Shown piece after piece: positions 1 through 13,830 of a stretch of 16,781 nt of DNA (positions within the stretch are counted from its first letter, which is position 1; the number at the start of each line of letters is the position of its first letter). The notes below the pieces were generated by a model, which worked only from the letters and a program-made list of their open reading frames with translations, was not told the origin of the DNA and made no database searches. This stretch comes from a bacterium (GTDB lineage Bacteria; UBP7; UBA6624). The DNA lies in NCBI GenBank assembly GCA_014384545.1, contig JACNFQ010000028.1, positions 1 to 16,781 on the forward strand. The letters are read 5' to 3'. The translations under genes were made by a program, and so were the position numbers.

Positions 1-1077
1 TTCCTCAAGGGTAGAAAAACGAATCACCATCCCGGGAGGTAAAGTCGTTGTAAGGGCAGCTCGAGCTCCTTGTCCTTCCCAATCACAATGGACCATTAGC
101 GTGCGGGTATTCTGTTTAAGGTGACCTTTTTCCCAGAAAACGGTGGAACGCTCTCCCGCTTTGATCTGACAAGTAAGGGGTGGGGGATTCCATTCGAAAG
201 TTAGGGGTACAGGGTTGCCCAAGAGGAGCGTGGGTTCTCGATTTTTGAGCTTAAAGTGAAGTGAGACATCGGCCGCTAGACCTGGCTCTGTTTCCTCTGT
301 AGGAGAAAGGAGAATCGCGGCTTGGGGGAGATCGATGATTGCCGATCCATCCCACCCCATCGGTGCCACCGACAATGGGGGAATCTCCCCCTCTCCCGTT
401 TCCCAGTGGGGAGAGAAGGGAAACGCTAGGGTGTTCTCTTCAAAGAGCCCCCCTTCAATCTCTTTTCCCAAACAGAGAGTCCTCAAAGCAGGAAAACGCC
501 CCTCTTTTGCTAAGAAAGTACGAAGTGCCTCGTTTTCAAGGGATTCATAAAGGGTCGTTAGGTCCCACTTGCCGCCCATTCGTCCTTGAATGGGGAAGAT
601 CTCAATAAAGAGGAGTTCATCTCTTCCACCAATCTCCAACCACAGGGGGGTTAAGTCGCCAAGATCGGCACTGTTAATGAAGGAAGTCGTCCCTTCTGCT
701 CCATCTGTAAGGAGAAGGGTCATGCGCGGAATCGTAGGGGGGACAGACCAAATCGCCTCTAACGTCGTCAAGAACCCGGTAGAACCTCCCTTGTTGAGGG
801 GGGACGTGAGTAAGGGGTCAATTTGAGCGAGCCCCGTGGCTGTAGAGAAAGGTGAGGAATCCCCTGCACGCCAAAACCGATAAGTGCTGTTGTGAGGGGT
901 AACTTCCAGATGACGAGCAAGTGAAACGGAGGGGTCATCTTGTGCCCCAGCCATCGAACCGGACAAGTCCAAAACGACATTGATTTCAACCCCCCTTTGG
1001 CATGCAAGAAGTATCAATAGCACCCATGGAGAGACCTGTTGACGCAAAGCGTTGCTAGAGAATCTCGATTTCGTCAT
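1..1077 (-). CDS. vWA-domain lipoprotein (3' end outside window)
   Basis: I read 359 codons from an ATG at 1077 to the window edge without a stop, so the C-terminus is missing. The N-terminus is a lipoprotein signal: a short polar stretch, the hydrophobic run WVLLILLAC, and a lipobox Cys at residue 26. A von Willebrand factor A domain follows at once. Its MIDAS motif DLSGS is at 37-41, a GGST stretch at 98-101 may supply the metal-binding Thr, and a TDG motif is at 124-126. After about residue 240 the protein looks beta-rich and unrelated to known domains. vWA domains bind protein ligands through a divalent metal. As a lipoprotein it should act outside the cytoplasm. It is the last visible gene of the ubiquitin-like cassette. 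Its start lies 23 bp inside the E2 gene and is preceded by a GAGGAG-like ribosome site, so translational coupling is likely. Its role in the pathway is inferred from position only. Confidence 0.85.
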   Translation of the reverse strand, partial: MTKSRFSSNALRQQVSPWVLLILLACQRGVEINVVLDLSGSMAGAQDDPSVSLARHLEVTPHNSTYRFWRAGDSSPFSTATGLAQIDPLLTSPLNKGGSTGFLTTLEAIWSVPPTIPRMTLLLTDGAEGTTSFINSADLGDLTPLWLEIGGRDELLFIEIFPIQGRMGGKWDLTTLYESLENEALRTFLAKEGRFPALRTLCLGKEIEGGLFEENTLAFPFSPHWETGEGEIPPLSVAPMGWDGSAIIDLPQAAILLSPTEETEPGLAADVSLHFKLKNREPTLLLGNPVPLTFEWNPPPLTCQIKAGERSTVFWEKGHLKQNTRTLMVHCDWEGQGARAALTTTLPPGMVIRFSTLEE

Positions 1078-1735
1078 CCCTCTCCTCAGGTAAGAGGTGG
1101 CCCTCAAAGAGTGGAAACCAACGCATTCTCTCACGGGCCCAAACGACCAAACAAGGATGAACAGGCTTGAGTGTGGGATGAGGAGATTCACCGGGCATCG
1201 GCTCCAAAAAGTCGTCATGATTCTGAAATGTAATTATGGACGCAACTTGTAGAACGATATCGACCGCAGATTGGGCGTCTGGGCGCCAATGATCACCGAT
1301 ACATATCCAACCCAAATTCTTCCCTGGATTTCCCGGACGACAGTCCACATTGGGGTGCCATACCACAGCGCCACCATCTACAACGGGAAGCAAAGAACGG
1401 TTGGCTAAGGGATAATCTCGCATAAAGGTAAACCTGACTGAAAGAGGCTTGGTGCTCTCTTTCCAAAGAGAGCCTTTGTCCTTGTGGTCAGAGGGTAGTT
1501 TGTAAGAAGGATCCACAAAGGCTGAATGGGGATATCCACCACAAGCCTGTGTAGCTAGGAGATGGGGTAATCGGTAATGAACCGTAAAAGAATCAGGCGC
1601 CATCTGCGGATTTGAGGGGGGATGGGTGAGATTGTATCCAGGTGGAAGAGCGACCACAATCTCTGGATGATCACTGAATCTATCTATGACGCCTTGGTCG
1701 CCCCAAAGCTCGTTCCGAATCCTACGCGTTCTCAC
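1055..1735 (-). CDS. E2-like ubiquitin-conjugating (UBC-fold) protein
   Basis: This 226-residue protein carries the hallmarks of an active E2. An HPN tripeptide lies at 127-129. A G-x-I-C-I segment at 142-146 puts the probable thioester Cys at 145. HWRP follows at 149-152, then an amphipathic helix (about 155-170), matching the W-x-P plus helix that follows the active site in classical E2s. The gap from HPN to the Cys is about six residues longer than usual and contains GNPGKN and a second Cys (132). The first 100 residues would form the N-terminal helix and sheet and are poorly conserved. A tail of about 55 residues follows the core. The start is GTG, one base after the JAMM gene stop. The protein should receive the tag from the E1 encoded two genes upstream. 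No RING or other E3 is visible, so it may transfer the tag directly. The family call rests on the motif set, with no alignment run. Confidence 0.85.
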   Translation of the reverse strand: MRTRRIRNELWGDQGVIDRFSDHPEIVVALPPGYNLTHPPSNPQMAPDSFTVHYRLPHLLATQACGGYPHSAFVDPSYKLPSDHKDKGSLWKESTKPLSVRFTFMRDYPLANRSLLPVVDGGAVVWHPNVDCRPGNPGKNLGWICIGDHWRPDAQSAVDIVLQVASIITFQNHDDFLEPMPGESPHPTLKPVHPCLVVWARERMRWFPLFEGHLLPEERDDEIEIL

Positions 1736-1736
1736 T

Positions 1737-3215
1737 TTACTTGTAGCATGGGCCCCATAGACCCATCCCTTTTGGTTTGAGGGGTAAGACTAGGTGCCGC
1801 TTAAGGATAGAAGGGATGGGGAGAAAGATAGCATCCCGCCCATCCTTAGCCAAAAAGGAGGCAGCTTCTAACCAACCTCTTGGGCCATTCCATAACGCAA
1901 AGATATCCGTCGCTTGTCCCATCGCATCCATAAAAGCCTTCCGCTGCGATTCGAACAGCCGGAGAGCGAAATACCTTCTGTCGTTCTTATGAAGATACGA
2001 GAGTCTATTGCGAAAACGCATCTGATAAGTCTTAGCCATGGAGAGAAAAGTTTCAGAGGGTAGCGTGCTAAGGGGTAAAAGATGGCAAGAGGGAGGTAGA
2101 TGTTGAGGTAGGAATAGAAGTTCAGACATGACGCCTTGAATCTCTCTGCGGAGACGCTCCTCTTCGGCCTGCGCTAGATCTAAAACTCTTCCGTGAACCC
2201 CATCTAAAGTGCCCGTCACGTCCTCAAGTGCAAGTGAGAATTCATCCCACTTCAATCTAGTCTCAGATTCAAAAAGAGAGAATGAAGAGATCTCTTCTTC
2301 TGTTTTAGCCTGCAAGTGAACGAGCGTTTCAAGCCCGGCATTCGTCTCTGAAACGACTCCCTCTAACTGAGAGTATCTCAAGGATAGACCATCTAGTTCC
2401 TCTCTAAAAGAAGAATCAGGTGTGGTGATCAGAGTGTCTTGGAAAACGCCCCACTCACTTTCAAGTTCTTGGAGATCCGCAGCCAACGTCGCCACTTCAA
2501 GCGTCAGCAGATCATCCTCATTATTAGCTTCCACGGCTAGAGTCTCGGATGCGGATGTCGTTTCGATTCCGTCTTCACCAAGGGATGGGGGTCGGTTTTC
2601 CCACATCATGAAAGCTCCCATCGCTAGGAAAGCAAGAAGAAGAACGATCGATTGTTTGCTTAACGACTTGCGTAGTGCCGAAAGGCGGGTCGCCAACTTC
2701 TCGACTTCGGCGTTTAGGTCGCTCTCTTGCGGAAGCGAGGCAGGAATACTCTGAGCCTCATCACCTTCCCGTAAACAACCAAACCACCCCTCTTTGCCTG
2801 ATTGGGGGTCGACCACCAAACCAACCATGCCCGGCACCCCAAATAAGCTCTTGTGACACGTTTGGTCCCATGAGCTATAGAAGATGCCGTGTCCCGGATG
2901 GCTGTGCCACCATCCCACGACACGCATGTCGGGATACTCAATGGCCGCTTGGGCGCCCAAACGACTCAGTTCCTCTTCGTCCAATTCAAAGCGAACAGAA
3001 GTGCCTCTCCCTTCTTTCCCATGGAGCAACGCCTTGGGTTGGCACAAGAGGCCCGACAAGGGGTCGTTGGGGTCGGCAACGATGCGCCCCACCAACAATC
3101 CACCTGTCTCTTTTCCGCGGGCCTTCTTTGCCAAGCGGAACGCTTCTTTAACGAGACCCTCTCCATGTTCAATCCTCACGGGAAATCGACTTTCAATGAC
3201 ATCAATGTCGTCCAT
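1737..3215 (-). CDS. JAMM/JAB isopeptidase fused to TM helix and coiled coil
   Basis: The N-terminal 160 residues form a JAB/MPN metalloprotease domain with a complete JAMM motif: Glu36 in KETGG, then HSH at 104-106, Ser114 and Asp117 in the exact H-x-H-x7-S-x2-D spacing. Such enzymes cut isopeptide bonds to ubiquitin-like tags, or trim their C-termini. A basic stretch (about 174-187) leads into a hydrophobic helix at about 188-205, then an acidic linker. A long heptad-like, Glu/Leu-rich region follows (about 233-365), then a less regular C-terminal domain to residue 492. The basic flank before the helix and the acidic flank after it predict a cytoplasmic JAMM domain and an extracytoplasmic coiled coil. 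Bacterial JAMM deconjugases of this kind are usually short and soluble, so the C-terminal 300 residues are unusual. The ATG has a good GGAGG site six bases upstream and shares one base with the E1 stop (TAATG). Confidence 0.88.
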   Translation of the reverse strand: MDDIDVIESRFPVRIEHGEGLVKEAFRLAKKARGKETGGLLVGRIVADPNDPLSGLLCQPKALLHGKEGRGTSVRFELDEEELSRLGAQAAIEYPDMRVVGWWHSHPGHGIFYSSWDQTCHKSLFGVPGMVGLVVDPQSGKEGWFGCLREGDEAQSIPASLPQESDLNAEVEKLATRLSALRKSLSKQSIVLLLAFLAMGAFMMWENRPPSLGEDGIETTSASETLAVEANNEDDLLTLEVATLAADLQELESEWGVFQDTLITTPDSSFREELDGLSLRYSQLEGVVSETNAGLETLVHLQAKTEEEISSFSLFESETRLKWDEFSLALEDVTGTLDGVHGRVLDLAQAEEERLRREIQGVMSELLFLPQHLPPSCHLLPLSTLPSETFLSMAKTYQMRFRNRLSYLHKNDRRYFALRLFESQRKAFMDAMGQATDIFALWNGPRGWLEAASFLAKDGRDAIFLPIPSILKRHLVLPLKPKGMGLWGPCYK

Positions 3216-4432
3216 TATGGTCCTCCAAATCTCTTTTCAAATGCGGTCCGGTCTTCTTTGAATGAAAGAATAAGGACTTCGTCACAATCGGGAGCCATAC
3301 CCAAATACTCATGCATCGGTGGTAAAGACCACGCCTTGGGAGACAAATCTAAGGCGGGCAGCCCCTTGTGAATGTGCCCCCCTTCAGCTACAGCAAGTCC
3401 CCAAGAGGGGTCAAACCCTTCTTGGTCGCAACAGACACCAGCCAGATCACCTAAGAACCAATCGGGAGAAAGGATGGGATGAACAGTTTGACATGCGGGG
3501 CACGTCGCTTCTATCTTCGTTTCGACACCAATATCCAAAATGGCGTACTTACTTCCCAAGCTATCTTGAACCAAGTCGACCATTTCACCAAGGGAGGTGG
3601 AACCCCAATCACTATCCAAGACTAAAGTGCGGCTTGGTGGTTGAGCCTCTTTAGATGCGGGTGGAAATCTCTCAAGCACATAGTCATTTGAAAAGCCCTG
3701 CCCAACGAGAGCATGCCCACGCAGGGGACGAGGACGTCCCTCACCATTCTGGTGTAGACGCTTAAGCGCTTCTTGTACTAAGAAAGCGCCGCAAAGCGAG
3801 GCAGATAGGGGTGTCGTAGCGATATGACCACCTTGATGGGCACGTATCTGAATATCTCGACATGAAACGCCCCCCGCCACAACGCCTTCGGGCAAGAGGT
3901 CGGCGTACCGGTGAGATTGAGGCAAGGAGTGGTCAAAGGGTTGAATCTGGAAACCTAAAGCAGAAATAGCACCATCCAAATGGTCGACTCCCGCCAACCA
4001 TGCTAACTTATCCAAGTGGAGTCGGGCTGGCACATTATCTACGCAACCAATGACAGCATTGCAGATGCGAACGAGACCTACCCCCACAACTTCTTGGAGG
4101 GACTTTGGAAGAGGAATGACTTGAACATCGGGATTCAGGGCCCGCAACGCTTGGGCAGCAGCAACCGCTTTGTTTTCACCTTCATCTGATTCGCGAAAGA
4201 GAACACTTCGAGCCAGATTGGTTCTCTCCACATCGTCGTTATCCACAATGTAAATAGTCCCTGCTCCCAACAAAGCTAAGTTTTTCAGCACTTCATTCCC
4301 AATAGCACCGGCACCTACCACCAAGAATTTCGAGGCACGAACACGTGCAGAATCCCACCAGGGCATGAGTTCTAGACGCTCATACCTACCTTCAACCTCT
4401 TCATCCCACTCTATCGGTTCAGGAACTGTCAC
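3215..4432 (-). CDS. E1-like ThiF/MoeB-family ubiquitin-activating enzyme
   Basis: This 405-residue protein begins with a ThiF-type adenylation domain. The nucleotide-binding loop GAGAIGNE is at 40-47, the acidic strand end VDND at 63-66, the ERTNLAR segment at 69-75, Lys88 and the CVDN motif at 130-133. It should adenylate the C-terminal Gly of the ubiquitin-like protein encoded just upstream and then hold it as a thioester. Cys191 in GGVSCRD is the best candidate for the thioester residue, with Cys214 as a fallback. The C-terminal third has a CPAC pair (311-314) and a CC pair (334-335), probably a structural zinc site, and ends in FGGP. There is no ubiquitin-fold domain like that of eukaryotic E1s. 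The start is GTG in a GTGA overlap with the stop of the ubiquitin-like gene, a typical coupled arrangement. MoeB or ThiF of cofactor synthesis is unlikely because E2 and JAMM genes follow directly. Confidence 0.9.
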   Translation of the reverse strand: MTVPEPIEWDEEVEGRYERLELMPWWDSARVRASKFLVVGAGAIGNEVLKNLALLGAGTIYIVDNDDVERTNLARSVLFRESDEGENKAVAAAQALRALNPDVQVIPLPKSLQEVVGVGLVRICNAVIGCVDNVPARLHLDKLAWLAGVDHLDGAISALGFQIQPFDHSLPQSHRYADLLPEGVVAGGVSCRDIQIRAHQGGHIATTPLSASLCGAFLVQEALKRLHQNGEGRPRPLRGHALVGQGFSNDYVLERFPPASKEAQPPSRTLVLDSDWGSTSLGEMVDLVQDSLGSKYAILDIGVETKIEATCPACQTVHPILSPDWFLGDLAGVCCDQEGFDPSWGLAVAEGGHIHKGLPALDLSPKAWSLPPMHEYLGMAPDCDEVLILSFKEDRTAFEKRFGGP

Positions 4433-4698
4433 CCTGCAATCATGCGCTCCTTAATCTCTAAGCGATCCCCATTCTGAATCCCTCCTTCCTGGAGCGTGGT
4501 TCGGTCGCCCATCTGTCCAGATGTCCTTTTGCAATATAGATACCTAGCGATTGGCTGGCCATCTTCATGGGTGGTGGGCAAGCTCCATAACGACTCGCAC
4601 TTCTTAATGAGTTTATGAGCCTCTGTATGGGGGGGCAACTTAAATTCGTTGCTTCGGGTCCCTACACTATTCGTTACGACGACTTTAATCTTTTCCAT
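4429..4698 (-). CDS. YukD-like ubiquitin-like protein with C-terminal Gly
   Basis: This 89-residue protein has the size and pattern of a beta-grasp ubiquitin-like fold: a first beta hairpin (KIKVVVT to NEFKLP, 3-22), a helix (about 25-37) and a final strand. The segment GIQNGDRLEI (73-82) matches the near-terminal GD-x-L-x-[IL] strand of YukD/EsaB-type bacterial ubiquitin-like proteins. A tail KERMIAG follows and ends the protein in a single free Gly, preceded by Ala rather than Gly. YukD itself stops at that strand, so the tail looks like an adaptation for activation and conjugation. The tag is made mature and should need no trimming. Lys residues 3, 5, 20, 29, 32, 33, 57 and 83 could allow chains. 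It is the first gene of the cassette. It has its own promoter-like sequence 33 bp after the diguanylate cyclase gene and overlaps the E1 gene by 4 bp. Confidence 0.85.
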   Translation of the reverse strand: MEKIKVVVTNSVGTRSNEFKLPPHTEAHKLIKKCESLWSLPTTHEDGQPIARYLYCKRTSGQMGDRTTLQEGGIQNGDRLEIKERMIAG

Positions 4699-4704
4699 TC
4701 CCTA

Positions 4705-4734
4705 GATTCTATCGTCAACATGAATGGGCATTCA
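4705..4734 (-). promoter_or_regulatory. Promoter of the ubiquitin-like cassette, probably leaderless
   Basis: On the minus strand I see TTGAAT, an 18-base spacer, TAGAAT, then seven bases to the ATG of the ubiquitin-like gene. The -35-like box contains the stop codon of the diguanylate cyclase gene. The -10 sits so close to the ATG that transcription would start at or next to it. This is the only unit start in the window with both boxes in reasonable form. It suggests the cassette can be expressed separately from the upstream genes. Confidence 0.55.
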
Positions 4735-6741
4735 AGAGGCAGAAACGACACAATTCCTTCCCGAGTTCTTGGCTTGATACAACGCTTCATCTGCTTCTTT
4801 TACCAAGTGCACAGCGTCTCGATTAGCATCTGTAGATTGCCAAGTAGCAACCCCAATACTAGCTGTTATAGACAAGGGTGAGGTATGCAGAGAGAACGGT
4901 TTGGACTCCAATGAGCTACGAATACGCTCTGCTACATGGACGGCTTCGCTCGATCCCGTATCTGGTAAAACCAAGAGGAACTCTTCGCCACCAAAGCGAC
5001 ATGCAATATCGATTTCTCGAATAGCATTTCGAATTCTCTCTGCTGTTTCCTTAAGAACACAATCTCCTACGTCGTGTCCATAGCTGTCGTTCACAGTCTT
5101 AAAGTGATCAAGATCAACCATCACCACTGACAAGGGGTTTCCAATGCGTCGTGCCCGCGCCCATTCTCGGTGCAGTGCAGGGTCAAAAAAGCGCCGCAAC
5201 CAAAGCCCTGTTAACGAATCAGTAAGGCTAAGGCGCACGGTGGATTCATACTTTAGGGCGTTCGACAAGGCGGTTCCCAATTGACTGGACAGACCTTCCA
5301 ACAACGCCATGAGGTCGGTAGAAAAGAGACCAATATCTGGATCATCCACATTCAAGACTCCAATCGGTTCACCGTGGGAAATCAACGGGAGAATGCCAAA
5401 AGCACCTGTTCGAAAGTTCTCCTTCTTCTCTCGACCCAATTCCGATTCCATATCATTTACAAAGCGGGGCTCTTTGCACTGTATCGCAGACCAAAGAAGC
5501 GAAGAAGGTTCGCGGGGAACAGCTAGTGAAGAGGACAAAGACCAGTCATCTCGATTATGAGCCCACAGCCGCAATTGGCTCTTATCTTCGTTCAGCAAGA
5601 AGATGGATAAGCCCTTTAGGCTGGCCAAAGACGGAAGGTCTGTGACAACGACATCAAGAATCGCCTCCATTGAAAGACTTGATGAGATGCGCTTGGAAAA
5701 CTCCGCCAACCGAGCCATCTTGTCTCGAGCCCGCCGCATCGCATCGTAAAGACGCGCATTCCTAATCGCCTTTGCAATTTCCTCTGAGAGGACCCTTAGG
5801 ACTCTTACATCAAAGGGGTGAAAATCATCTTTTCGCTGAGACTCTACCGTAATCACACCTAACGTCTCTTCATCTCCCTTGATCGGCAAAGCCAAGGCGC
5901 TTTCTGTTCCAGGAATCGCTTCTAAGAACCGCTTCTCTTTCGATACATCCCCCACTAAGATGGGTTCACCTTCAGATGCGGCAACGATCGTCAAGCTATC
6001 ACCTTTAGGCAATACAAACCCCAGTGGAAGGTGGCGCGGTGTTTCACCTGCACGTGCGCGCAATGTCAATTCACCATCCAATCTGTAAAGGAAGATAAGG
6101 ACATGGTGATACCCCAATTCTTCATGAATCGCCTTAGCGACATGAGCTAATACCTCGCTCGTATTGAGACTTTCTAGTGTGCGTCTAGAGACTTTCAGAA
6201 TCGTCTCCATTTCTCGGGCTCGTTTCCGGCTAATCGCTAGGGCATCGGCATACCGCAAGGCGACGCCCAGTTGAGAGGCAAAGACCTCAAGTACATCCAC
6301 ATCTTTAGGAGAAAACGCCTCCCTACGAGCACTCTCAATATCGAGCACCCCCATGAGTTCCTCTTCAACAAAGACAGGAAGAGCGAGTTCAGAGAGGGCT
6401 CCTTCTATCCCGGGTTCAAAGAAAGGGTCAGTCGTTACATCATTCGCCAAATAGGTTTGACCCGAGGAAACGACTTGCCCCAAGACACCATCCAAAGCGG
6501 GGTGGTGAAACGCTTCTGGAAAGGGGGATTCGCCCGGCCCCGCATAGGCGACAAGGCGAAGAAAAGCTCCTTCTAAGAGGAAGAGTGAGACATGGCGGAA
6601 CGAAAACCCAGTTTGAGCTTCGGTTACAGCAACCTTAAGGAGTTTGTCAAAATCATCGACCTGACCCAGTCCTTTCGCCAATCCAGCCAAAAGGCGTAGG
6701 TAAGGGGACTCTATATTGGGGGGAGATTCGCTTTCCTTCAC
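4732..6741 (-). CDS. Diguanylate cyclase with three GAF domains
   Basis: This 669-residue protein has three successive GAF sensor domains (about 16-165, 180-330 and 345-495) joined by helical linkers, followed by a GGDEF domain (about 500-669). The active-site loop reads GGEEF (584-588), a catalytically competent variant. An RxxD inhibitory site (R575 to D578) lies five residues before it, so product feedback by cyclic di-GMP is likely. There is no transmembrane segment or signal peptide, so it should sense a cytoplasmic ligand or redox state and make cyclic di-GMP from two GTP. The start is GTG, with TAGGAT six bases upstream. The gene lies between the LysM gene (29 bp away) and the ubiquitin-like cassette (33 bp away), all on one strand. 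Whether cyclic di-GMP signalling is linked to the cassette cannot be read from the sequence. Confidence 0.93.
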   Translation of the reverse strand: MKESESPPNIESPYLRLLAGLAKGLGQVDDFDKLLKVAVTEAQTGFSFRHVSLFLLEGAFLRLVAYAGPGESPFPEAFHHPALDGVLGQVVSSGQTYLANDVTTDPFFEPGIEGALSELALPVFVEEELMGVLDIESARREAFSPKDVDVLEVFASQLGVALRYADALAISRKRAREMETILKVSRRTLESLNTSEVLAHVAKAIHEELGYHHVLIFLYRLDGELTLRARAGETPRHLPLGFVLPKGDSLTIVAASEGEPILVGDVSKEKRFLEAIPGTESALALPIKGDEETLGVITVESQRKDDFHPFDVRVLRVLSEEIAKAIRNARLYDAMRRARDKMARLAEFSKRISSSLSMEAILDVVVTDLPSLASLKGLSIFLLNEDKSQLRLWAHNRDDWSLSSSLAVPREPSSLLWSAIQCKEPRFVNDMESELGREKKENFRTGAFGILPLISHGEPIGVLNVDDPDIGLFSTDLMALLEGLSSQLGTALSNALKYESTVRLSLTDSLTGLWLRRFFDPALHREWARARRIGNPLSVVMVDLDHFKTVNDSYGHDVGDCVLKETAERIRNAIREIDIACRFGGEEFLLVLPDTGSSEAVHVAERIRSSLESKPFSLHTSPLSITASIGVATWQSTDANRDAVHLVKEADEALYQAKNSGRNCVVSAS

Positions 6742-6747
6742 CCCCTC

Positions 6748-6753
6748 ATCCTA
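6748..6753 (-). promoter_or_regulatory. TAGGAT -10-like box abutting the GGDEF gene
   Basis: TAGGAT is followed by six bases and then the GTG start on the minus strand. No convincing -35 box is present. The embedded AGGA could also act as a weak ribosome site, so the call rests on the same placement at other unit starts in the window. Confidence 0.4.
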
Positions 6754-6770
6754 CCCAGTGCCCCTCTTAC

Positions 6771-7391
6771 TTAGTGAAGTGGAATCTGAATCAGGTCCCC
6801 AGGGCGAATCTTGGAAGGGTCAATATCACGATTTAGATCCACAAGGTCTTGGAGGTCAATATCTAGCTCGGAAGCGATTTTCCAGAAAGTATCACCTTGC
6901 CGCACTTGGAACCAACCCTCTTCTAAGGGTTGGGGTTGGGGAGGAGCTGTCCAAGGCGGAATCAAGAGACGCTGTCCAATCTCTATGTGGTTACTTGAAA
7001 TCTGATTGACCTCTTTGATCGCCCTAATCTCCACATCGAATTGAACGGCGATGGATGAGAGAGAATCTCCACGACGCACCACATAGACTTGGAGCTCTTC
7101 TTCCTCTCTTTTTTCTAGGGGGATTTCTGAGTCGCTAGGAGGTCCAAAAGCTAATCCTTCAGGAGTCAGTCTATCTTCCTCTAGGTCTGTATTCTCTAAA
7201 GCATCCATAGGGTATGTCGCTGAAGGGGGGGGAATAGGACCGGGTCGTGGACCCTTCTCCACCACTTCTTGGCTTTGATTTCCCCACTGAGAGAGTCCCC
7301 AGACCAGTGTCAATGCCAGAAGCGAAGGCCAAACCAACTTTGGTAGAGTGGTGGTTTGTTTGGAGAAACGTCTCAAGGTGAAGATTGCCAC
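6771..7391 (-). CDS. Membrane-anchored protein with two LysM domains
   Basis: This 206-residue protein has a basic N-terminus, one hydrophobic helix (about 19-36) without a lipobox Cys, a Pro-rich and acidic linker (about 45-100), and two LysM domains. The first (about 102-145) contains VRRGDSLSSIA and ends in LLIPP. The second (about 160-204) contains VRQGDTFWKIA and ends in IQIP. LysM domains bind N-acetylglucosamine-containing glycans, here most likely peptidoglycan, so the protein should be held in the inner membrane with LysM domains in the periplasm. No enzymatic domain is present. The start is GTG, with an in-frame TAG just upstream. It has no -10 box next to the start, unlike most unit starts here, and is preceded by a 177-bp spacer with a hairpin. 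It could be a cell-wall tether or an adaptor for an unseen amidase. Confidence 0.85.
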   Translation of the reverse strand: MAIFTLRRFSKQTTTLPKLVWPSLLALTLVWGLSQWGNQSQEVVEKGPRPGPIPPPSATYPMDALENTDLEEDRLTPEGLAFGPPSDSEIPLEKREEEELQVYVVRRGDSLSSIAVQFDVEIRAIKEVNQISSNHIEIGQRLLIPPWTAPPQPQPLEEGWFQVRQGDTFWKIASELDIDLQDLVDLNRDIDPSKIRPGDLIQIPLH

Positions 7392-11862: not shown

Positions 11863-12533
11863 ACAGCGGGATCATCTTTGACTTGGACGATACCCTTTGT
11901 GATACAAGGGGACAGTTGGTGATGGTTGCTCATAGAGAGGCGTCCGAGGCGATGAGAAAGGCGGGGTTGCACTTCTCGGTAGATGAGATTCTAGACAAGC
12001 GACTTTTCCACTGGAAAGAGAATCCCCGAGGTGATATTGACCTCTTGACGAGTGAATCTTTGGGGGGTGGAAGGGGTGAGGCAGAAGCAGGAAGGAAAGC
12101 CTACTTGGAGAGACCTGTGGGAGCGTTAGACCCCTTACCCGGAGCGATTCCGTTGTTACACGCTCTATCGTCTTGGAAAAGAGCGTTGGTAACGAGAGGT
12201 TCGCCCATAACACAAGGAGAAAAAATCAAGCTATTGGGGTTTGGTTCGTTCTTCGACTCGATCCATATTGTCCCTTCCCATCTCTCTAAGAAGGGCACCT
12301 ACCAAGAGGTGGTTGAGGAGTGGGGATTGCCTCTTTCTCGAGTCGTGGTGGTCGGGGACCGTCCCGATAAAGATATTGAACCAGCAAGACGATTGGGTTT
12401 AAGGACGATTCGGTTTCTCAACGGAGAGTTTAGAGAGGTCGCTCCCTCAAGAAAATCTGAGCGAGCGGACGCCGAAGTAGAGAGACTTGAGGAGATTCTC
12501 CCCTTGCTGAAAGAGTGGCTTCTTACTGATTGA
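11859..12533 (+). CDS. HAD-superfamily phosphatase
   Basis: This 224-residue protein has all four HAD motifs: DLDDT at 8-12 (nucleophile Asp8, acid/base Asp10), Thr112 in LVTRGS, Lys144/Lys145, and GDRPDKD at 166-172. An alpha-helical cap (about 15-85) sits between motifs I and II, as in the beta-phosphoglucomutase/YjjG-like subgroup. Asp10 favours phosphatase or phosphomutase activity. The start is TTG in a TTGA overlap with the kinase stop. No upstream start is possible without running into the kinase, and a later start would lose the nucleophile. It may act on the product or a related intermediate of the kinase. Its 3' end overlaps the 3' end of the convergent lipoprotein gene by 11 bp. 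Confidence 0.87.
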
Positions 12534-13830
12534 CAACGGCTTCGGGGTCGATAGAGGACAGAGTCCCCCATATGGAGGGGTGTAGCCAACCCCCCACCAA
12601 GGTCTTATAGGTTTCGTACGGGATATAGAGGGTTCGGGAGCGTTGCCCAGATTTGCTGGTAAGAATCGCTTGGACTCGGTTCGCTTCCTCAAGGTTGAGC
12701 TCCTCATAGGGAAAGTGGAATTCGTAACCACCCTTTCCTGAAACCAAGTAGATATCTCCTTCGTAGTTTAGGAGCAACTCTGCCTGGCGTGCTCCATCCA
12801 ATGAAGTGACAGAGACCTCATTGAGGTACCGAAGCCATTCTTCTCCTTCTCCGCGACGGTATCCATAGTGGAAGTCAAGTCGGATATCTCCTGATAAGGG
12901 AATCCAAGCAGGACCTTCAGGGACAAAAGTGGTCAAGCTGTCAGTCCCCAAATCACCACAGACCAAGGTGGTGGGAGGGGAGCCTTCTGATTGAACAACG
13001 ACCGTAGGTCCTTGCCTTTCGATCGTGGCAACCTGATTGTCCTCGCTATCTAAGAACTCCCCGGTTCTCTCTTCCGAAGAGACGGGCCATGTGATCGACC
13101 CGATTCTCGCCAAGCCTCCTCCATCAAGAGGTCGTCCCTGAACCAAGAATATCTGGTGAGGCGCGTCTACTTCGTCTTCGTGCACCCTATAAAGCACCAG
13201 GGGTTGTTCGTCTCCTAAAGCAGCCACAATCTCCTTTCCTCTTTCGTTAGAGAGCGTATTCAGGCAGGGCTCCCATGAAAGAAAGTAACGGTGATAATCG
13301 ACTTCTGGCTCGTTTGTAGCTCCTAGGATATCATCGGTGGGGGAGCCCAAAATAGCGTCCGTTGGTGAGAGGTTTTCCGGCATTCCACAATCTGCTCTAC
13401 ACGACGCTTCAATCATTTCGTAGGGCACTGATTCCATTCCATGATCTTCTAGACACCGTTCAAGACAGGACTCGGAGTCGTCCGGTTCCGGTAGGGGAGC
13501 GCACGGGTTTGCTGGGGAACAGGGGTTGGAAGGGGCACAAGGATTGGCTGGACTGCAAGGGTTTGCTGGGGCGCAGGGGTTGGAAGGGGCACAAGGATTG
13601 GCTGGACTGCAAGGGTTTGCTGGGGCGCAGGGGTTGGAAGGGGCACAAGGATTGGCTGGACTGCAAGGGTTTGCTGGGGCGCAGGGGTTGGTTGGGCTAC
13701 ACGGATTCTCCAGATCTTCGGACTCATGCTCTGGGGTGGGGGTGGAGGATGTTGAATCAGATTGGGACTCCTTCGGGGTACACGAAGCAAACAGAATAAG
13801 AATAATAGGGATAAGGCGAAAGAAGTTCAT
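12523..13830 (-). CDS. Lipoprotein with twelve Asn-Pro-Cys hexapeptide repeats
   Basis: This 435-residue precursor begins with a hydrophobic signal and the lipobox FASC (Cys17). A polar Ser/Thr/Glu linker follows. Twelve consecutive six-residue units of the form NPC[SA]P[ATS] occupy residues 42-113. After them come four more Cys in a [12 protein letters not shown] and SCRADCG region (about 122-151) and a short internal duplication (SPTDAILG then SPTDDILG). The remaining 260 residues are probably a beta-rich domain that I cannot name. The regularly spaced Cys could be disulphide-linked or bind metal outside the cytoplasm. Similar repeats occur in envelope lipoproteins of some Myxococcota-like bacteria. 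The start has TAGAAT seven bases upstream. It converges on, and overlaps by 11 bp, the HAD gene. Confidence 0.87.
13492..13707 (-). repeat. Tandem repeat encoding NPC units, with a 54-bp perfect core
   Basis: Twelve 18-bp units encode the Asn-Pro-Cys hexapeptides. Inside them, 13520-13691 is exactly periodic at 54 bp for about 3.2 copies (three 18-bp units per period). Flanking units are diverged. Exact identity at third codon positions shows recent tandem duplication or active slippage, so copy number may vary between strains. Confidence 0.95.

Follow-up and report, generated by a model that had tools for sequence, protein, structure and literature searches.

A divergent, probable YukD-type ubiquitin-like conjugation cassette with a transmembrane JAMM protein in a UBP7 bacterium

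Five adjoining genes at one end of a bacterial contig raise the question of whether they encode a ubiquitin-like (Ubl) conjugation system, and to which class such a system would belong. The DNA analysed, here called the window, comprises all of contig C64 (JACNFQ010000028.1; 16,781 nucleotides, 16.8 kb) of an incomplete metagenome-assembled genome (MAG, 79% complete) of the lineage UBP7, UBA6624. Because the window is an entire contig of an incomplete MAG, the cassette could extend further and may continue beyond the contig end. The minus strand carries, in order, genes for a Ubl, an E1, a JAMM peptidase that bears a transmembrane (TM) helix, an E2 and a vWA-like protein. The Ubl and E1 genes overlap by 4 bp (GTGA) and the E1 and JAMM genes by 1 bp (TAATG), the JAMM and E2 genes are separated by a 1-bp gap at position 1736, and the E2 and vWA-like genes overlap by 23 bp (1055-1077). 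The single strand and the four junctions described in an earlier note on this DNA were all reproduced exactly.

The family was found only via two-sequence profiles seeded by a plasmid cassette of Crinalium epipsammum. An E1 scan detected related E1s in at least 529 genomes; locus counts refer to the best 80 of these E1 relatives, 51 of which had enough flanking sequence to be judged. Profiles built from relatives without the window sequences, searched against all open reading frames of the window, picked exactly the four core genes: Ubl (3.9e-17), E1 (1.3e-79), JAMM (4e-28) and E2 (4.1e-7). The next-best frame reached 0.066 with the E2 profile and no better than 0.62 with the other three. Pfam cut-offs were passed by ThiF (6.5e-39) and Prok-JAB (1.1e-7) and missed by YukD (0.0014) and UQ_con (0.19).

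The Ubl (4429-4698, minus strand), whose gene adjoins that of the E1, is a YukD/ubiquitin-like modifier of 89 aa with one ubiquitin-like domain and the C-terminus MIAG; a YukD score of 7.1e-12 was obtained for the relative L101, against 0.0014 here. Like 50 of 70 relatives, the window protein terminates exactly in AG, a common ending that the earlier note had overlooked. A few relatives carry a short tail beyond AG, as expected for a precursor processed by the JAMM peptidase. The E1 (3215-4432, minus strand, GTG start) has 405 aa and a single ThiF/MoeB-type adenylating domain (one ThiF match, aa 29-233) with the predicted catalytic Cys191. Cys191, K88 and D132 are invariant (84/84 relatives). 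At the C-terminus the CPAC half of a zinc knuckle is kept, and the first CxxC pair, present in relatives, is lost. The branch of this E1 is long in the E1 tree, which gave the window no placement.

The JAMM gene (1737-3215, minus strand) encodes a JAMM/MPN+ metallopeptidase domain (aa ~20-150), a TM helix and a C-terminal region of about 280 aa. The motifs ETGG and HSHPGHGIFYSSWD are present, the metal-site residues (E36, H104xH106, S114, D117) are intact, and the HxH is conserved (104/104). The TM segment is predicted at aa ~185-207 (2595-2663, minus strand; hydropathy maximum 1.74 at aa 185). A TM helix follows the JAMM domain in 40 of the 51 judged loci, and the membrane-fused JAMM reported earlier is therefore a real, conserved feature. 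With four K/R before the helix and one after it, the window protein fits a positive-inside topology; this pattern occurs in only 20 of 54 relatives' JAMM proteins, counts that do not settle the orientation for the family.

The E2 (1055-1735, minus strand, GTG start) has a UBC fold, an HPN motif (127-129) upstream of the catalytic Cys145, and insertions around the active site. H127 and N129 are conserved among relatives, in which the Asn of HPN is found in 90/90 and the Cys in 78/90 sequences. An AlphaFold2 model (pLDDT 79.7, pTM 0.80) retrieved only E2s in the top 19 rows of a Foldseek search, and its best structural match is UBE2S (Z 11.3). Single-protein searches with the window E2 gave no match in plasmids or in any of 289 other genomes, and those with the window E1 gave none in viral contigs; both proteins are divergent members of the family. 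The predicted catalytic residues are intact in E1, E2 and JAMM, and each gene has an open frame closely coupled to its neighbours. Core profiles, active sites and the modelled E2 fold together support the view that the locus is a Ubl-conjugation cassette.

The fifth gene (1-1077, minus strand) is still open at position 1, where the contig ends. It encodes an apparently exported vWA-like protein with an N-terminal signal, a predicted lipobox LLAC at residues 23-26 and a MIDAS-like pattern (DLSGS...GST...TDG, corresponding to DxSxS...T...DG). Alignment with neighbouring vWAs by hhalign covered residues 27-128 (E 2.5e-4, probability 43%); Pfam, NCBIfam and PADLOC gave no match for the protein, and an AlphaFold2 model of it alone had a pLDDT of 32, too low to confirm a fold. 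This assignment is the weakest of the five gene calls. The vWA-like pattern and lipobox of the vWA lipoprotein previously described are thus present, but the gene is truncated and cannot be called a complete lipoprotein. When the window's own genome was searched with an Acidobacteria vWA-RING protein, the missing part of the truncated gene was not found. In L060 a vWA protein ends in a TM helix plus a RING. A vWA motif in the relative locus L077 was a false match: the protein is a cobalamin adenosyltransferase by sequence and has no vWA-profile match.

Across the judged loci, Ubl, E1, E2 and JAMM occur together in 47 of 51, and in 38 of these 51 loci all four are present with a TM-bearing JAMM. 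In a negative control of 20 loci surrounding generic ThiF/MoeB matches (1.5-kb flanks), another JAMM motif was seen only in L018. The core order Ubl-E1-JAMM(TM)-E2 is also that of L075 and L097; L051 shows it too, with a single additional JAMM. A vWA gene stands beside the other cassette genes in only 4 of 51 loci. The proposed co-occurrence of five proteins therefore holds for the four-gene core and not for the vWA gene, and a distinct subtype defined by gene order and vWA lipoprotein, as had been suggested from the window, is not supported.

The recurrent fifth partner in relatives is a RING-like zinc protein, found in 33 of 51 judged loci. Prok-RING_1 is matched by 46 of 108 neighbouring proteins, and the partners often have membrane helices. 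The window, whose contig ends inside the vWA-like gene, contains no RING gene. In the same genome a Prok-RING_1 match lies on another contig, C17, unlinked to the cassette; its genome-scan score (29.5) is just above the Pfam curated cut-off and its whole-protein score (26.8 bits) just below. None of 14 control genomes had a Prok-RING_1 match over the curated cut-off, and by phmmer the C17 protein matches the cassette RINGs of L095, L071 and L096. A Prok-RING_4 match in the same genome was below cut-off. The earlier note had overlooked both the characteristic RING-like partner of such cassettes and the RING gene on C17.

We read the cassette as one of the YukD-type Ubl/E1/E2/JAB/RING systems, which Burroughs, Iyer and Aravind reportedly predicted in 2011 (Mol BioSyst 7:2261). 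It shares with these systems a YukD-like Ubl, a separate single-domain E1, a separate HPN-Cys E2 and a JAB protein, with Prok-RING_1 partners in its relatives; it differs in lacking a linked RING gene in the sequenced part, in the truncated vWA-like gene after E2, in the missing first CxxC of E1 and in the insertions around the E2 active site. The plasmid cassette of C. epipsammum PCC 9333 (NC_019754) likewise has E2 and Ubl genes, an E1 34% identical overall, and a JAMM protein with the common motif VVGW(W/Y)HSHPGHGIF followed by a TM helix. Its order, however, is E1-Ubl-Ubl-E2-JAMM, neither of its two Ubls ends in AG, and it has no vWA gene. Type II CBASS and Iyer 6a-6b systems have either an E2-E1 fusion with a CD-NTase or an E2-E1-JAB fusion with an MBL; they were set aside, as E1, E2 and JAMM are separate genes here and no CD-NTase or MBL was seen in the cassette. 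Bil systems (BilA-D), which we take to be row 6d of Iyer 2006, also combine Ubl, E1, E2 and JAB in one operon. BilD has an inactive and an active adenylation domain, BilA two Ubl domains and BilB a CEHH site (PMC11354881), whereas the window has one adenylation domain, one Ubl domain, an HPN-Cys E2 and a TM-JAMM. E1 domains, Ubl domain number and E2 site all fall outside the Bil definition, in agreement with the earlier separation of the cassette from Bil. In Candidatus Caldiarchaeum subterraneum, a Ubl, E1, E2, RING and Rpn11/JAMM are described as acting as a conjugation cascade (PMC5654768). The window has the Ubl, E1, E2 and JAMM, with RING proteins among relatives and on C17; the archaeal operon differs in its small RING protein and di-glycine pro-ubiquitin, and the parts of that account available to us mention no membrane-fused JAMM (PMC5654768).

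The cassette is thus probably a functional, though divergent, member of a widespread bacterial class of YukD-Ubl/E1/E2/JAB/RING conjugation systems. As for its chemistry, the C-terminal Gly89 of the Ubl, already exposed and so in no need of a maturation step, would be adenylated by E1, carried on Cys191 and passed to Cys145 of E2. Transfer to target proteins would be directed by a RING-like protein, probably the C17 membrane RING or part of the truncated vWA protein. The membrane-anchored JAMM, its catalytic domain in the cytosol, would remove the tag. With this JAMM and a membrane RING, conjugation and removal would be tied to the cytoplasmic membrane, and tagging of proteins near the inner membrane is a reasonable hypothesis. 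An extracytoplasmic vWA protein and the JAMM tail could report the state of the envelope.

A sulfur-transfer pathway of the ThiS/MoaD kind would fit the single-domain ThiF/MoeB-type E1. Sulfur carriers end in GG, however, and this Ubl in AG, while the conserved E2 with catalytic Cys and HPN, the JAMM and the RING partners make that pathway highly improbable. It is also very unlikely that the cassette is a relic decaying in a small-genome lineage. Decay would account for the lost E1 CxxC zinc pair, the long E1 branch, the divergent E2, the lack of a linked RING and the absence from sister genomes (E2 and JAMM were not found in two others of the family, G001 and G002, both incomplete); against it stand the open, coupled frames, the retention of every catalytic residue and the RING gene persisting elsewhere in the genome.

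Bil-like anti-phage defence, with the Ubl added to phage proteins, would use the same toolkit of Ubl, E1, E2 and JAMM. The cassette is common to many Planctomycetota, Chloroflexota and Bacteroidota genomes, with versions in Singulisphaera acidiphila, Portibacter lacus and C. epipsammum. A defensive role agrees with a sporadic distribution: 13/147 genomes have the E2 in one order, to which a Pirellulaceae relative belongs, and a broad bacterial sample gave 4/385 besides the window. It also agrees with the Crinalium plasmid copy, with a copy on an IMG/VR contig (L115) and with an E1 of this clade at the end of a phage-tail contig (L025). In one Chloroflexota order, in contrast, the E2 is near-core (33/36 genomes) and almost always single-copy, unlike defence genes, which argues against a purely anti-phage role. 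The relatives' neighbours (RING, FHA, trypsin-like, vWA, M48) are not known defence families, and PADLOC found only weak E1 and JAB matches in the window, with no Ubl or E2. Defence is therefore an unlikely explanation. A conjugation system for everyday envelope quality control is a tentative alternative to defence: membrane RINGs would attach the AG-ending Ubl to membrane- or envelope-bound proteins, the membrane-fused JAMM would remove it, and external vWA or LysM domains would sense the envelope, as a core function in some lineages.

To our knowledge, YukD-type Ubl systems have been predicted but not tested. The TM-fused JAMM, the AG-ending Ubls, the RING partners with membrane helices and the near-core status in one Chloroflexota order give such a system a firm anatomy. 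Should conjugation be demonstrated, bacteria would possess a membrane-linked E1-E2-RING-JAMM cascade that resembles the eukaryotic one and serves purposes other than phage defence; this would bear directly on the origin of the eukaryotic system.

The cassette lies on the minus strand at one end of contig C64, which the window covers in full, within a metagenome-assembled genome (1.39 Mb, 79% complete). It consists of genes for a ubiquitin-like protein (Ubl, 4429-4698), E1 (3215-4432), JAMM peptidase (1737-3215), E2 (1055-1735) and a vWA-like protein (1077-1), inside which the contig stops. On re-examination, all five genes matched the earlier note exactly, as did its four junctions. Pfam alone gave strong support for E1 and JAMM, and weak support for Ubl and E2. 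Among all ORFs of the window, profiles of relatives built with the window left out singled out precisely the four expected ones (Ubl 3.9e-17, E1 1.3e-79, JAMM 4e-28, E2 4.1e-7). The E2 structure model (42 sequences; pLDDT 79.7, pTM 0.80) aligned with E2 enzymes at VIA-align Z up to 11.3, and its first 19 Foldseek matches were all E2s, yet none fell below E 0.001. The vWA-like gene was recognized by a pattern resembling MIDAS and by a single weak match to a profile; structure prediction of its protein gave no usable fold.

Single-sequence searches recovered no family because the window proteins are so divergent. A plasmid search led to Crinalium epipsammum PCC 9333, where E1, two Ubls, E2 and a JAMM with a C-terminal transmembrane (TM) helix adjoin each other, and a JAMM profile from two sequences yielded three further bacterial loci. 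When the genomes of 84,980 species were scanned with an E1 profile, relatives numbered at least 529; the 80 best were retained. In a negative control, 1 of 20 loci around generic ThiF/MoeB matches (1.5-kb flanks) contained another JAMM motif.

E1 Cys191 is invariant (84/84 relatives), as are K88 and D132; the JAMM HxH is kept in 104/104, and the E2 HPN and Cys145 in 89-90/90 and 78/90, respectively. The window's Ubl has Ala-Gly as its last two residues, as do 50 of 70 relatives, where the usual form is PE-I/V-T/V-AG; some relatives carry a short tail beyond AG. This ending is a mark of the family, unlike the di-glycine end of ubiquitin and MoaD/ThiS. Based on these conserved residues and established ubiquitin chemistry, Ubl-AMP would be formed, and Ubl passed to E1 Cys191 and on to E2 Cys145; a RING would assist transfer from E2, and JAMM would remove Ubl. 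No RING was found in the sequenced part of the cassette. A candidate E3 of 196 aa, with Prok-RING_1 followed by hydrophobic helices, is encoded in the same genome, on the plus strand of contig C17 (about 27046-27636; L118:7047-7637), adjoining glycine-cleavage genes and unlinked to the cassette. When the genome was scanned, its RING exceeded the curated cut-off (0/14 control genomes did), but it fell slightly below when the protein was scored whole; the protein matches the cassette RINGs of relatives.

The positive charges flanking the TM helix of the window JAMM (4 vs 1) and the need to meet cytosolic Ubl suggest that the JAMM domain faces the cytosol; across relatives the charge rule is not supported (20/54 fit). 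The system may also have an envelope-sensing role. A triple-GAF GGDEF diguanylate cyclase gene (4732-7391, minus strand) ends 33 bp upstream of Ubl and is preceded by a membrane LysM protein; the cassette may thus form the last part of a longer operon. The TM-JAMM of relative L051 contains its own LysM domain. The product of 12523-13830 (minus strand), a putative lipoprotein, contains tandem Asn-Pro-Cys-Ala/Ser-Pro repeats and has no Pfam match.

Gene content was counted at 51 loci where E1 is flanked by 3.5 kb or more on each side; the counting relied on in-house profiles and motif patterns plus a rule based on hydropathy. As the loci were picked by E1 similarity, the counts describe this E1 clade and not all bacteria. 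Ubl was found in 47 loci, E2 in 49 and JAMM in 49, with all three in 47; JAMM was TM-fused in 40, and a RING-like gene occurred in 33 (20 with TM). Gene order and the vWA gene had been proposed as defining marks of a subtype, which did not hold: order differs between phyla, being Ubl-E2-E1-JAMM in Planctomycetota and E1-Ubl-E2-JAMM in Chloroflexota, and L075 and L097 share the core order of the window, as does L051 apart from one additional JAMM. The vWA gene, in 4/51 loci after removal of one false match, is an occasional accessory. The relatives' vWA proteins appear exported or membrane-bound; that of L060 ends in Prok-RING_1 and that of L113 carries an FHA domain, and the truncated window protein could have the same kind of C-terminal ending. 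Many planctomycete cassettes (L038, L044, L052, L053, L061, L071, L076 and L100) have E2 and JAMM in duplicate, and often a pair of membrane RINGs as well, which suggests duplicated or paired pathways. In the Bacillota versions (L045:6547-8370; L099:9159-11060), E2 is joined to membrane helices and, at its C-terminus, to an FHA domain (confirmed with Pfam in L045); a trypsin-like gene follows.

In 2011, Burroughs, Iyer and Aravind reportedly predicted operons of YukD-type Ubl, E1, E2, JAB and RING, a class to which, from the Pfam naming of Prok-RING_1, we take the cassette to belong. The arrangement is not among operon types 6a-6e of the Iyer 2006 survey (PMC1779556). The cassette also lacks the three Bil features tested, namely two-domain E1 adenylation, a two-domain Ubl and the CEHH E2 site. 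On these grounds it is filed as a divergent, new member of an already predicted system class. We know of no earlier description of the TM-JAMM, the AG tail or the near-core distribution.

The E2 profile matched 13 of 147 genomes in the order of a Pirellulaceae relative and 4 of 385 other genomes in a broad sample; the cassette was not found in two sister genomes of the window's phylum. This patchiness, together with the Crinalium plasmid copy, a copy in a viral collection (L115) and the E1 of a phage-tail contig (L025), shows the cassette to be mobile. The L025 E1 (4246-4758) belongs to this clade; it stands at the end of an IMG/VR contig that carries phage tail genes, immediately following one that is tail-fibre-like. 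In the Chloroflexota order of L101 (genome G387), E2 was matched in 33 of 36 genomes, one with two. Such near-universality is surprising, since the gene is usually treated as accessory. Near-fixation of E2 argues for a cellular role of the system in that order.
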